Shown: positions 25,648-40,606 of the stretch, one piece after another
How positions within the stretch are numbered: position 1 is the first letter of the stretch
Layout of the letters: every line of letters starts with the position of its first letter
NCBI GenBank assembly: GCA_023248815.1
Contig: JAHFDV010000003.1
Coordinates: 1-40,606 of the forward strand
Source: Myxococcales bacterium
GTDB taxonomy: Bacteria > Myxococcota_A > Polyangia > Polyangiales > Polyangiaceae
DNA length: 40,606 nucleotides
Direction of reading: 5' to 3'
Made by a program: the position numbers and the translations under genes
The notes under the pieces: model-generated
The model's input: only the letters and a program-made list of their open reading frames with translations
Databases searched by the model: none
Told to the model about the DNA's origin: nothing

Positions 25648-26724
25648 TCAGCGAAAAGCGCGTGGAACGCCTGAAAATCCAGGTCCGATCTCGTTCTTCA
25701 CGCCTTGAACGGTCGGCTCGGCGCCCGTTGCGTCGCTGAGATCGAGCACGGGCGTCGTTCCTGAGCCGGTGCGCGAGAACACGTTGCCCTCGAAGGAGAT
25801 CAGATGCGCACCGAACGTCACGCGCACGACGGATCGCGCTTCATTCTCGATTTCGAATCGATTGCGTGTGAATCGATAGTCGCCATCGCTCGATGTCGCT
25901 TCTTCGTCTCCGCCGAGACGGACGAGATGATAGTGCTCGTGGCCATTTCCGCGAATGACGTTGTCGACGATGTCGGAGCTCGTGGGGCGCGGCTTTCCTT
26001 TCACGATCTCGGGCCCGATGAGATCGAGCGCCTGGTAGTAGGCGCCTTCGATCGTCGACCCGCGAATCTCGTTCCTCTCCGCGCGGCTCTTCACCGCGTT
26101 GCCACCGAGACCATCGTGCACGCGGCTCTGCAAGAGTCGAAACGTCGCTTGGGGATACGCCGCTTGATCGGTCGCAACGTAGATTTGATGACGGCGATCA
26201 CCACTTCCGGCGTGGTGGACGTCGACGCGCTCGAGCGTGAGCGAACCCGAATTCGTATCGGAAGCGAGAATGCCGTGGGAGGCGCAGTCGTGGACTTCAC
26301 TGTCGCGGATCGTGACGTCGTTTCCTTCGACGAATACCGCCGCGAGCCTTCCGCCTGTCACTTCGACGCCCTCGACGAGAATGTGCTCTCCGCGAATCGC
26401 CAACGTGTAGCGGTCGTCTTTCGACGCGAAGCGTGGTCGCTTCCCGTTTTCGACCGTTCCGACGACGCGGATCGGCTCGAGAGCCGTGCCACTGCCCTCG
26501 AGATTCATCGCGGGATAGTCGACGCCCCCTTCGAGGGTCAACGTGTCGCCAGGACCGAGATCCGGAGTCAGACTGCCCACGGACTTGTGATCGCGATGAG
26601 GTCCCACCGCGAAAGACCGATGGCCGCGACGCGCGTGAAGACGACGACGAATCACGAATGCAACGGCGACCATCGCCAAGAGGACGGCGATGATTCCCGC
26701 GGCGACTCGCGCATGCTTCTTCAC
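25648..26724 (-). CDS. Right-handed parallel beta-helix repeat protein, membrane anchored
   Basis: N-terminal TM; DTLTLEGGVDYPAMNLEGSGT..., EVTGGRLAAVFVEGNDVTIRDSEVHDCASHGI; GTG start with 4-nt overlap. Confidence 0.8.
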   Translation of the reverse strand: MKKHARVAAGIIAVLLAMVAVAFVIRRRLHARRGHRSFAVGPHRDHKSVGSLTPDLGPGDTLTLEGGVDYPAMNLEGSGTALEPIRVVGTVENGKRPRFASKDDRYTLAIRGEHILVEGVEVTGGRLAAVFVEGNDVTIRDSEVHDCASHGILASDTNSGSLTLERVDVHHAGSGDRRHQIYVATDQAAYPQATFRLLQSRVHDGLGGNAVKSRAERNEIRGSTIEGAYYQALDLIGPEIVKGKPRPTSSDIVDNVIRGNGHEHYHLVRLGGDEEATSSDGDYRFTRNRFEIENEARSVVRVTFGAHLISFEGNVFSRTGSGTTPVLDLSDATGAEPTVQGVKNEIGPGFSGVPRAFR

Positions 26725-28601
26725 GCAGGTCGCTTCTTTCGTCCCAAGAAGATCACGAGCGCGACGACGGCGACGATGAGCGCACCGAAGAGCGCTTTCG
26801 TGCGAAGGCGCATCTTGTCGGGCTTCGCGGCGACGGCACGAACGGGCTCTTTGCGCGTGAAGTTCACCTCGGCGTGCGCACCACGGAGGACGTCGTGGAG
26901 TGCTTTTCGGGCTTCGAAGAAGTCGGCGCCGCGCTCGGGCCAGCTCGGAGCGCCTTTCGCTTCGCTCAACGCCAACGGCACGATGGCATCGACGATCGCT
27001 TCGGTACGGAGACGATCCTTTGCGCGCGCCATTGCGATGAGCTCGGCGTCTTCGAGACCGCGACGGATCATCTTCAGTTTCAGGGACGGAATCAGTTCGT
27101 CTTCCAAGCCGAGGTCGAGCATCCCAGGACCGCTTTGGCTACCCGGATAGAGAAGGAGGCCGTCGCCGTTTTGATGATCCCCGTCGCCATTGTGGAAGGT
27201 CTCGGCCGTCGTCAACGGATCGAAGCCGCGCTCGCCGCCTTTTCCACCACGATTGCCGTCGAGCCAAAACGTGCTCTCCCAATAGAACCACTTCCAAAGC
27301 TTGTACTTTGCACTGATCCAGCCGTTGGCGAGAAGATCGGTCGCGGGGACATCGAGCACCATCGCGCCGGCGTAAGGCCTCTTGCCGTTGTAGACGCCCA
27401 CGGACTGCGTCGAGGTTCCGTCGTCACGCACGGGCGTGTACGCGTCGGTCGTCATGAAGACGACGTCGGCGGATTGCGCGCGTGCTGGCAAGCTGCAGGT
27501 GACTCCGACACGGATCTTCTTGCGAAGGGCGGGCGCATCTTCGAACGCGTGATCGAGCTCCTTTTTCCAATCCGCCGCGCGGGTGCTCTTGCAGTCTTCG
27601 TCGATCGCGTAGATGAACGGCGTAACGACCTCGAACGCTTTTCCTCCGCCCGCCGCGAGATGTTCGATCAGCCCGCGCGCGTGCGCGGCCTTTTCGGATG
27701 TCGGTTCCTTGTAGGCTCCGTACATGCCGAGAATCACCGTGGACGAAGGCGCGCCCGCGCCGAAGCCGACGAGATCGGCGAAGGTCGTCCCGCGAATGGC
27801 TGAGAGCTCGTTTTCCAGTGCTTCCCGCTCGTGCGCCTCTTCGACGCTTGCCGTCGTCGAACGTGGGAGGTCCGTCACTCCATCGAGACCGTGTGCATGG
27901 AGGATTTTTCTCGCCGACAGCTCGCCGCGCGCGCCGTCGATCCCGCGCTTCTTGAGCGTCTCGACGTCGAAGTACGTGAAGGCGCGTCCGCTTGGATAGG
28001 GAAGGCGGTCGGCAACGAAGCGAATCTGGAACGGCCTTCGCTGCGCGATCGTCTCGCCGCGTTTGACGACGATCTCTCCCGAGTACGTGCCCGCAGGAGG
28101 TGTCGTCGTCGGAACGACGTCTACGAAGACGACGTGACGACCGAGATTCGGTTCCGTCGAAACGCCGCTGGGAACGAGAGGGTCGGCGAGCTCCCCCGTG
28201 TGTCTTTCGGGATCGGGAATCGCGCTCTCTTCGAACGCGAGGGCGCCGCCTTCACGGTCGTTTCCACTTGCACGCGCGACTCGCAAGAAGCGCTCGTCGT
28301 ACGTCGTGACGCCAACGGCGAGCTTGTTTCCTTCGGCGGACGTGAGCGTCGTCGCATCGCTGAAAGAGACCGACCACTTGTCGCCAGAGCGCTCGTCGAT
28401 CACGACCTGGAACGACACGACCTCGTCCGTGAGGGCATCGAGCACGATGGGGCCCTCTCCGAAGACGCTCGCAGGAAGCGGCGCCGTCGCATGAACGCGC
28501 TCGGCGTCGTCGAGAAAGGTGATGGCGGCACGAGCGGGGCGCGCGAGAAAAAGCGTTCCGAGTGCCAGCATAGAAAAGATCGCCACTCGTCGACTCGTCA
28601 T
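26721..28601 (-). CDS. DUF4091 (glycoside-hydrolase-like) exported protein
   Basis: ATG at 28601 with signal peptide; GDGLLLYPG...IPSLKLKMIRRGLEDAELI motif; C-terminal TM anchor. Confidence 0.8.
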   Translation of the reverse strand: MTSRRVAIFSMLALGTLFLARPARAAITFLDDAERVHATAPLPASVFGEGPIVLDALTDEVVSFQVVIDERSGDKWSVSFSDATTLTSAEGNKLAVGVTTYDERFLRVARASGNDREGGALAFEESAIPDPERHTGELADPLVPSGVSTEPNLGRHVVFVDVVPTTTPPAGTYSGEIVVKRGETIAQRRPFQIRFVADRLPYPSGRAFTYFDVETLKKRGIDGARGELSARKILHAHGLDGVTDLPRSTTASVEEAHEREALENELSAIRGTTFADLVGFGAGAPSSTVILGMYGAYKEPTSEKAAHARGLIEHLAAGGGKAFEVVTPFIYAIDEDCKSTRAADWKKELDHAFEDAPALRKKIRVGVTCSLPARAQSADVVFMTTDAYTPVRDDGTSTQSVGVYNGKRPYAGAMVLDVPATDLLANGWISAKYKLWKWFYWESTFWLDGNRGGKGGERGFDPLTTAETFHNGDGDHQNGDGLLLYPGSQSGPGMLDLGLEDELIPSLKLKMIRRGLEDAELIAMARAKDRLRTEAIVDAIVPLALSEAKGAPSWPERGADFFEARKALHDVLRGAHAEVNFTRKEPVRAVAAKPDKMRLRTKALFGALIVAVVALVIFLGRKKRPA

Positions 28602-29587
28602 TTTAGAAGTCCCTTCCACTCTGCGGACAGCTCGGGCGCGTGCTCCAAAAAAGGCGCCTTCGAGGCGCTCGAGAGCGTGTGCCAATAGAGAACGTTTTCG
28701 TATTGGCCGCTCGCCACTAGGTCGAGCGTCGCGGCGAATGTTTTTGCGGTGTATGTCGCGTCGAGGTGAAGACCTGCCGCGTGCGCCTTTTTCATCACCG
28801 CGTCGCCAGCTTCCGTCGCAATTCCATACCCTGCACCGCGATACCCGCGCTCGACACGGACGCGTTTCCCTGTGAAGCGAACCTTGCGAAACCGAGCGAC
28901 GCTGCTCGCGAGGCGTCGCATGAAAGGTCCGGCGGCCCAAGGAGGGTCCGTCACGACGACCCCAACGAGATCCGTCTCCCACCCGAGCTCTTCGATGCCG
29001 ACCGCAATGCCCGCCATCGTGCCCCCTGAGCCGAGCGTCACGACGATCGCGTCGGGCCTCGGAAGGACGCCCTCTTCGACTTGCTTGGCGAGCTCGTGAA
29101 CCGCGTCGGCGTAGGCACTCGCGCCAACCACATTCGAGCCACCGACCGTGATGACGAACTTTCCCGAGAGAAGAGCCCAGAGCAGTCGAAACCCTGCGGT
29201 GAGAAGCGAAGAGGTCTTGCGGATGACGAGTCCCTGACTGAGCCCGGCACGAATGTTCGAGACGACGTGATCGGTTTTGACCTGCGGAAATAGAACGCCC
29301 TCGACGACGTGCCCGAAGTGCTTTCCAAAGATCACGGTCGCGAGGACGTGATTGCTCCCCGCCGCACCGACCGTGACAATCGTCTTCTCTCGTGGAACGC
29401 CCTTGAGGATCTCGGCGAGCTTTCGCGCTTTGTTCCCGCCGTAGGTCTTGTGCGTGAGGTCGTCGCGCTTCACGAAAAGCGTCGTTTTCTCGGTCGAGAG
29501 AGAATCAATACGGTCGACGGGCGTCGGCAGCTCCAGCGCTAGATTACGGCCATTTTTGCGAGTCGTTTCGCTCTCGTCACTCATCAT
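28598..29587 (-). CDS. PLP-dependent D-cysteine desulfhydrase / ACC deaminase family enzyme
   Basis: LFVKRDDLTHKTYGGNKARKLAEIL, TVGAAGSNHVLATVIFGKHFG, VTLGSGGTMAGIAVG. Confidence 0.88.
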   Translation of the reverse strand: MMSDESETTRKNGRNLALELPTPVDRIDSLSTEKTTLFVKRDDLTHKTYGGNKARKLAEILKGVPREKTIVTVGAAGSNHVLATVIFGKHFGHVVEGVLFPQVKTDHVVSNIRAGLSQGLVIRKTSSLLTAGFRLLWALLSGKFVITVGGSNVVGASAYADAVHELAKQVEEGVLPRPDAIVVTLGSGGTMAGIAVGIEELGWETDLVGVVVTDPPWAAGPFMRRLASSVARFRKVRFTGKRVRVERGYRGAGYGIATEAGDAVMKKAHAAGLHLDATYTAKTFAATLDLVASGQYENVLYWHTLSSASKAPFLEHAPELSAEWKGLLK

Positions 29588-36884: not shown

Positions 36885-39584
36885 ATGCTGCGCATTGCTT
36901 GCGAGTCGTGTCACGCGCCTTATCAAGTGGACGAGCGACGCGTTCCGCCCGCCGGATTGAAGATGCGCTGCCCGAAGTGCGGCCACTCTTTCGTCGTCAA
37001 ACAGAACGGCGAGACCGCCCCCGTCGAAACCGCCCCGTCCAAGGAAGGGACGCCCAGCGCCAACCGCAGTAAAGCGACGATGGTCGGTGTCGCTGCCCAA
37101 TCTGGAGCGAGTCCTGCGACTCGAACCGCGGCTGCTGCGAGCGTCGATGAACCGGCTTCGCAGCGCGAGACGGCGCCCGAGCTCCCGCGCATGGGACCGC
37201 AAGGCTCTGCCATCGCAGCCGCGGCAAAACTGACGCGACCCGAGCTCCCGAAGACCCGCCCCGAAGCTCCGAAGAGTCCGCCGAAGCCTCCGCCCCCCGC
37301 GCCACGAAAGGTCGAGAAATCTGGATTCGAAGATCTTCCCGCGGCGCGATCCGAAGGAAAATCAGGACCGCTCGATGTCGATCTTCCGGCCGCGAAGCCG
37401 ACCGCAAAGATTCCTGCGACGCGTCCCCCGCTCGACGCAGATCTTCCTGCTGCCAAGGCCCCGATGGCGACGGGCGCAGCGAAACCGAGGCTCGATTCGG
37501 ATCGCGATCTGCCGGCGCGCGCAAAGACCTCTCCCGCCGTTCCGAAGCCGAAGGCGCCTGAACCGCAAGCTCCTGCGGCCCGTGACATGATGGAGCTGGA
37601 TCTCCCTGCCAACGCGTCGGACCTTCCGGCGCGCGCGGAAGTCGGACTACCCGCGCGGGGAGGAGATTCGGCGGATCCTTTCACGGATGACCCGTTCGGC
37701 GGTCCCGACTCGTTCGGCGAGATCGACTTGCCCGCCCTCGGCGAAAACCTTCCGAGCGTCCCCAATCAACTTCCTGCCGTCGCGAATTCCCTTCCTGAAG
37801 TGGCAGGTACACTGCCGGCCGTCGCCAACGCGCTTCCGGCCGTCGGCCAGACGCTGCCGAAGGTGGCCGATGCGCTGCCGGCGAAGGCCAACTACGGATC
37901 CCTCGTCGACGAAGGCGACCCTTTCGGCGCGCCGATCTCCGAGGCTCCGAGCCACGCGCTGAATGCTCACGACGGAGGAGCGGGCGGTGGGTCGCCCTTC
38001 GACGACCTGGATGAGATGGATGGATTCGGAGCTGCCTTGCTCGGCCCCGCGCGCACGCAAAAAGAAGCAAAGGAGCGCGATCTCGGCGCAACCGATGTCG
38101 ATGCGCCGCACGACCACGCAGAACCGGTTCATGCGCACGGCCCCGCGCCGTCGACCGACGCGTCGCCAAAAGAAAAAGGATTCGGCGAAGTCGATCTCGG
38201 AGGCTCGTCGTCCGAGGAGTCGGCCTCACTCGACGCCGGTGCTGAGCTCGACCTCGGCACGTCGACGGCTCCGGAAGACGGCACCGAGCTCGCGTTGCCC
38301 ATGCAGTCGGGCATCACGGCGGCGGCGACCGGACGAAAGCGCACACCCGACGCGGGTCCTCCGAAGAAGCGCTCTCGCGCGCCTGCGATTTTCGCGGCGT
38401 GCATCGTCGTCATTGCGGCGGCAGGTGCAGGCTTGCACTTCACGCCCTACGGTCTTTTCGGTCGCAATTTCATCAGCGATACGATTCATCAAAAAGAGTA
38501 CGACCAGGCCGCGACGCGGCTCGTTGGAGTGACGCGCGCGAAAGCCGCGACCGACGTCTTCTCCGATTCGTTGGCGGCGACGGAAGATGCGGCGCGAGAG
38601 CACGCTGCGCTCCCACGCGCTCACGGTGTCGCTGCGTATGCCGCGCTCACCGAGTTCCTCGCGCAGCTTCGCTTTGGTCGCGTCCCCGAACGCGCGGCGC
38701 GTGCGAATCTCTGGATGCAGGAGATCCCGCCGGAAAAAGAGCACGTCTTTGCTCCCGTCGCTCGCGCGCTTCAGACTGCGCTCGACAAAGATCTCCCGGG
38801 TGCCGTCGCCGCGCTCGAAGCCGCCGCGAACGGCGCTTCCGCGGAGCCCGTCGCGCTCGAGATCGCGCTTGGTCGCGGTGAAGTCGAGCTGCAGCGAAGA
38901 AGCGGACAAGACGCCGTCACTGCGTTCACCAAGGCCGCTGCGATCGAAGAAGGTCCGCGCGCACACTTCGGACTCGCGCGCGCCTACGTGCTCCTCGAAG
39001 ACGTCGAGCCCGCCAACAAAGAAATTCAGGCGACGCTCAAGCTCTCGCCGAATCACGTCGGTGCACGCACGCTCTCTGCGCGCTCCCTATGGGACTTCGA
39101 CCGAAACGAAAAAGACGCGCTGCAATTGCTCGCCAAGGTGATCGAAGGCGCAACGGGGACGGCCGGCACCGACGACTCGAATGTTTCACTGAATGACCTC
39201 GCGGATGCCTACGCCGAACGCGGATGGATCCATCTCGCGAAGGGCCGCGCGACCGAAGCACGCGCGGCGTTCGATGGCGGTCTGAAAGCCGAGCCACAGA
39301 ACATTCGCGCCCTACTCGGTTACGGTGAGCTCTTCTTCAACGAAGGCCGCTACGCAGAGGCACTCGCGCGTTTCGATCTCGCGATGCAGACGGCCGCGTC
39401 CGATCCCGTCGTCGTCGTCGCCAATGCGAAAGCGAAGATGATGCTCGAGCGACTTCAAGATGCGAAGACCCAGCTCGCGGCTGCCAAAGCGGAGCACCCT
39501 GAAAATTGGCGCGTTTCTTATTGGCTCGCGCGCACGGAGCAAACGCTCGGCAATCAAGAAGCGACCGAAAAAGAGTACGCGTAA
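36885..39584 (+). CDS. MJ0042 zinc-ribbon - Pro/Ala-rich linker - TM - TPR protein, N-terminal part before in-frame TAA
   Basis: MLRIACESCHAPYQVDERRVPPAGLKMRCPKCGHSFVVKQNG; TM APAIFAACIVVIAAAGAGLHF; TPRs; stops at TAA 39582-39584. Confidence 0.88.
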   Translation: MLRIACESCHAPYQVDERRVPPAGLKMRCPKCGHSFVVKQNGETAPVETAPSKEGTPSANRSKATMVGVAAQSGASPATRTAAAASVDEPASQRETAPELPRMGPQGSAIAAAAKLTRPELPKTRPEAPKSPPKPPPPAPRKVEKSGFEDLPAARSEGKSGPLDVDLPAAKPTAKIPATRPPLDADLPAAKAPMATGAAKPRLDSDRDLPARAKTSPAVPKPKAPEPQAPAARDMMELDLPANASDLPARAEVGLPARGGDSADPFTDDPFGGPDSFGEIDLPALGENLPSVPNQLPAVANSLPEVAGTLPAVANALPAVGQTLPKVADALPAKANYGSLVDEGDPFGAPISEAPSHALNAHDGGAGGGSPFDDLDEMDGFGAALLGPARTQKEAKERDLGATDVDAPHDHAEPVHAHGPAPSTDASPKEKGFGEVDLGGSSSEESASLDAGAELDLGTSTAPEDGTELALPMQSGITAAATGRKRTPDAGPPKKRSRAPAIFAACIVVIAAAGAGLHFTPYGLFGRNFISDTIHQKEYDQAATRLVGVTRAKAATDVFSDSLAATEDAAREHAALPRAHGVAAYAALTEFLAQLRFGRVPERAARANLWMQEIPPEKEHVFAPVARALQTALDKDLPGAVAALEAAANGASAEPVALEIALGRGEVELQRRSGQDAVTAFTKAAAIEEGPRAHFGLARAYVLLEDVEPANKEIQATLKLSPNHVGARTLSARSLWDFDRNEKDALQLLAKVIEGATGTAGTDDSNVSLNDLADAYAERGWIHLAKGRATEARAAFDGGLKAEPQNIRALLGYGELFFNEGRYAEALARFDLAMQTAASDPVVVVANAKAKMMLERLQDAKTQLAAAKAEHPENWRVSYWLARTEQTLGNQEATEKEYA

Positions 39585-40606
39585 GCGATCGCCCTCGTGA
39601 ATCCAAAGCATCCCGACGCCGTGCTTCCCTATGCGGGCCTGGCAGGGTTTCTCACCGAGCGCGGGTGCGCCAAAGAGGCGCAAGCCAAGCTCGAAGAGGC
39701 TCGCAAGAAGCTTCCCGATTCGTCGATGATGGAACGCGCCCTCGGTGACGTGGCGCTCGCTCAAGGCGCGCTCGACGTCGCGATCGATCACTACCGCGCA
39801 GCTGCCGGACGCGACCAGCAAGACCCCAATCCGCACTTCCGACTCGCGGTGGCTTACCGTCGCATGAAGAAGATCCCGGAAGCGCAAGCGGAGCTCGCGA
39901 AGGTCGAAGCGCTCGACAAAGAGTTCCCGGGACTCGTCGTCGAACGCGGACTTCTCTTCGAAGAGAGCGGGGATGTCGAGCAAGCGCTCGCACAGTTCAA
40001 ACAAGCGCTCGAAAAATCTCCCAACGACCTCGAATTGCAGCTTCGCGTGGGCTTTGCGTATGTGTCGGTCGATCATGCAGACGAAGCCGTCACGACCCTT
40101 CGCAAGGTCTACGAGACCAAGCCCGACTCGGCGCAGGTGAATCACGCCCTCGGTCGCGCGCTTCTCGCGCAAGGCGAGACCAAAGTCCCCGAGGCCCTCC
40201 GTTATCTGAAGCGCGCCGTCGAGCTCGACAAAACGCACGCCGAATATCACGTGTATCTTGCAATGGCCGCGAACGACTCGATGCCTGCGCAGCTCGGCCT
40301 CGCTCGCCAAGAAATTGAAAAGGCGCTCGAGATTGACCCAGCGCTCGCGGAAGCCTTCTGGCAGCGCGGTGCGCTTTCACTGAAAGAATCACGCACCGAA
40401 GACGCGCTTCGCGACGTCAAAAAGGCGCTCGAGCTGAGGCCGTCGAAGCTCGAGATTTATGCGACGCTCGCCGAAGTCTACGAAGCGAAGAACGAGAACG
40501 GCGCCGCGATCGAAGCGTGGCGTCGTGCGCTCACCGTGAAACATCCGCGACCCGCATGGCGATACCGCTACGCGAAGCAAATGAAGGAGCGCGGACAATG
40601 GGGTGA
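39585..40606 (+). pseudogene. In-frame continuation of the TPR protein after TAA (runs off window end)
   Basis: Same frame, stop-free for 340 codons: AIALVNPKHPDAVLPYAGLAGFLTERGCAKEAQAKLEEARKKLP... with repeated TPR motifs; not listed as an ORF in the track because it has no stop before the window end. Confidence 0.8.

Follow-up and report, generated by a model that had tools for sequence, protein, structure and literature searches.

An in-frame TAA lies 1,022 bases from the end of the DNA studied here, a window of 40,606 nucleotides that makes up a whole contig. Does this codon end a protein, or does it interrupt one? The open reading frame before it comprises 899 codons and closes on ...NQEATEKEYA, and beyond the TAA the same frame is stop-free for another 340 codons, as far as the contig provides complete codons (translation of 36885-40604). 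A sequence-only reading had described the TAA as a break in a continuous TPR coding frame and had listed four possible explanations: sequencing error, recent nonsense mutation, programmed readthrough and a split gene whose 3' half re-initiates downstream. The source genome, that of an uncultured myxobacterium, is a draft of 6,218,013 bases in 764 contigs, with an estimated completeness of 83.8%.

One TPR gene on both sides of the stop

The downstream frame is open as described and contains the TPR motifs quoted in the earlier reading. Pfam TPR models flank the TAA (TPR_19 before it, E=1e-11; TPR_11 after it, E=4e-29), and orthologues align unbroken across it at up to 51% identity. The open downstream frame is therefore not a chance occurrence, and the TAA does break one continuous TPR frame. 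Because the frame is still open at the contig end, and sampled orthologues appear to extend roughly 75-90 residues beyond the point at which the window copy is cut, the gene also lacks its 3' end owing to the contig edge. The parts of the gene are collected in the table.

Table. Features of the interrupted gene in the window
Feature	Position	Strand	Evidence
5' part, encoding the zinc ribbon, an Ala/Pro-rich linker, a probable membrane segment and the first TPRs; closed by the TAA	36885..39584	+	Translation, domain matches
Zinc ribbon (PF13717 / TIGR02098), residues 3-36	36891..36992	+	Domain matches
In-frame TAA within the second of a TPR's two helices	39582..39584	+	Translation, orthologue alignment, model
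3' part: TPR coding sequence free of stops, cut by the contig end	39585..40606	+	Translation, TPR matches, orthologues
GTG proposed as a restart, without an upstream Shine-Dalgarno sequence	39597..39599	+	Upstream sequence scan

The encoded protein opens with an MJ0042-type zinc ribbon (PF13717, E=1.4e-13; TIGR02098, 37.4 bits against a cut-off of 20.9). Domain matches place TPR repeats at the end of the 5' part and show the 3' part to consist entirely of them. A hydrophobic stretch near residue 505 (APAIFAACIVVIAAAGAGLHF), picked out by eye, is a probable membrane segment, and the architecture as a whole suggests that the product is probably a membrane-anchored scaffold. The linker (window positions 37300-38300) carries many short DLPA / LPAVAN-type repeats; a comparable LP-rich linker occurs in some orthologues.

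Both sides of the TAA belong to one zinc-ribbon/membrane/TPR protein gene that is conserved and single-copy in Polyangiaceae-type Myxococcota. The window's own genome showed no close paralogue, the next best match there reaching E=1e-7. We considered membership of the adventurous gliding motility protein GltJ (NF033761) and rejected it. The likeness lies in the N-terminal MJ0042-type zinc ribbon, which scores 40.6 bits over residues 3-72, but the curated cut-off is 450 bits, and the match ends after the zinc ribbon, the remainder of the protein here being TPR. On the opposite strand, the neighbours are uvrA and a gene with a weak match to DMT-type transporters. Elsewhere in the window, a 753-amino-acid frame (26721-28982, minus strand) has no Pfam or NCBIfam match and may encode a novel protein or be a wrong frame.

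We placed the stop in a structural setting using an AlphaFold2 model of the surrounding 440 residues, in which a residue took the place of the TAA (pLDDT 92.9, pTM 0.75; 32 sequences). The stop is model residue 100. It falls within helix 91-104, the second of a TPR's two helices, where the local pLDDT is about 97. A chain ending at the TAA would, on this model, break off partway along that helix and lack the 17 or more helices that follow.

A stop not seen in relatives

The gene is near-universal among the relatives surveyed: a search of 108 same-family genomes detected it at E<=1e-40 in 102, the window's genome counted, and among the matches listed from this search only the window copy has an internal stop. 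A profile search yielded 80 orthologue loci, 79 of which cover the site in one alignment, in Sorangium, Minicystis, Labilithrix, Polyangium and many Polyangiaceae/Myxococcales assemblies; judged by these relatives, the source itself probably belongs to Polyangiaceae-type Myxococcota. Every one of these 79 named spanning orthologues has a sense codon at the position aligned to the stop (E18 A17 D12 K8 T6 R6 S4 V3 Q3 G1 L1). Residues there are variable and mostly hydrophilic, in keeping with the earlier proposal that the stop occupies an exposed, tolerant TPR position. Comparison of orthologues, which had been suggested as a check, supports an interruption, in that all of the spanning orthologues carry a sense codon at the site and none of the listed matches is split.

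The C-terminal TPR array is collinear with that of the orthologues, to which the 440-amino-acid region around the site aligns with no break. Homologues such as those of Sorangium cellulosum, Minicystis rosea, Labilithrix and Polyangium share roughly 35-51% identity in the TPR region, which aligns end to end over the site, and 20 sampled orthologous open frames measure 1,092-1,678 codons. The window copy alone combines an in-frame TAA with a cut by the contig end, and it departs from the uninterrupted frame of this Polyangiaceae zinc-ribbon/TPR family by one internal TAA. A protein search of a collection of genome contigs with the window's 3' part alone revealed no close relatives. Since no genome of the same species or genus was found, absence of the stop is established only for relatives whose protein identity is about 50% or lower.

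Does the sequence past the stop show signs of decay? We compared the window copy with 20 orthologues, expressing its identity to them as a ratio to the identity of the orthologues with one another, in blocks of 100 residues. Upstream of the stop the ratios are 0.99 and 0.91, and downstream they are 0.99, 0.90 and 0.90; the corresponding GC3 values are 0.702 and 0.709. The sequence past the TAA is undecayed, which implies that the change is recent or that it never occurred in the organism.

Origin of the stop codon

With the stop present in no other genome, the most likely explanations are that the assembly is wrong here or that a loss-of-function mutation occurred recently. We regard it as very probable that the TAA is an isolated nonsense change of one of these two kinds, either an error in the consensus or a real nonsense mutation, of very recent date, carried by the strain that was sequenced or by part of its population. 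On this reading, one codon at a tolerant position within a TPR helix reads TAA in the assembly. The case resembles ordinary nonsense mutations and draft-genome consensus errors in having a single in-frame stop, an otherwise intact gene and no counterpart in relatives. Literature searches on stop-codon errors in metagenome assemblies and on this type of protein returned nothing useful.

An assembly or sequencing error would mean that the organism has a sense codon here and an intact gene. We give this close to an even chance, a figure that is judged and not computed. It fits a draft of 764 contigs in which some genes contain runs of N, a site near a contig end, a gene that is near-universal in its family and single-copy, and the lack of downstream decay. 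Against it, the window contains no N and the site has no homopolymer run. Other window genes that we checked also look intact and match their domains unbroken, so the contig is not obviously error-rich.

Alternatively, the nonsense mutation may be real and very recent, fixed or segregating, and truncate the protein; we consider this a serious candidate at somewhat below an even chance, again by judgement and not by computation. Nonsense variants occur in natural populations, and the change here is limited to one codon, with the remaining frame intact. Loss of the gene should, however, be costly, because 102 of the 108 family genomes retain it and this genome has no close paralogue of it, and no second lesion has accumulated.

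Separate translation of the 3' half, from the GTG at 39597 or a later start, is improbable. Start-type codons do occur in frame soon past the stop, and terminating ribosomes can re-initiate nearby, but the best Shine-Dalgarno match before the GTG is 3 bases, and later in-frame starts have matches no better than four bases. This is weak evidence by itself, since a Shine-Dalgarno sequence is also missing before the annotated start of the gene, at 36885. Stronger points against a separate 3' gene are that the break falls inside a TPR helix in the model, not between repeats, and that no relative, whether among the 79 spanning orthologues or the listed family matches, has a split orthologue.

Programmed readthrough or recoding of the UAA, giving a short and a long form, is more doubtful still. 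In its favour, the frame past the stop is intact and looks like coding sequence, but the stop is conserved in none of the 79 named orthologues nor in any listed family match besides the window's; the RNA fold around it is no better than shuffles (z=-0.02); and no tRNA with a UUA anticodon is present among 41 detected tRNA genes in this genome, which is 84% complete. TAA also behaves as an ordinary stop in the genome, since it ends 64 of 418 gene-like open frames (about 15%) in a rough coding-potential scan of 530 kb, and 198 domain matches (136 kinase and 62 ABC-domain) contain no internal stop. A version in which low-frequency readthrough across the genus yields two products, one short and anchored in the membrane, the other long and bearing the full TPR array, is rated highly unlikely as well. 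We found nothing useful in the literature on readthrough in Myxococcota. Of the four explanations originally listed, then, error and recent nonsense mutation are favoured by the data, and programmed readthrough and re-initiation are not.

We also looked for other interrupted genes in this genome. A kinase gene (C478:3000-6500) and an ABC-transporter gene (C576:1500-4000) were suspected of carrying frameshifts, but both proved to be broken instead by short runs of N, which are either scaffold gaps or withheld bases. The 530 kb scan gave many candidates, most of them resembling antisense frames and some of them ordinary neighbouring genes; judged by eye, none was a second clear interrupted gene.

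Consequences for the protein and its annotation

If the TAA is real, translation would end after 899 residues. The short protein would keep the zinc ribbon and the membrane segment and would lose at least 17 predicted helices of the TPR array, and we presume that it would be non-functional. Readthrough, if true, would be notable, but the comparative evidence opposes it. The finding is an ordinary one, and we found nothing that goes further. Its importance is mainly for the annotation of the interrupted gene: the end of the 899-amino-acid frame should not be taken as the natural terminus of the protein, and the 3' frame should not be annotated as a separate gene.
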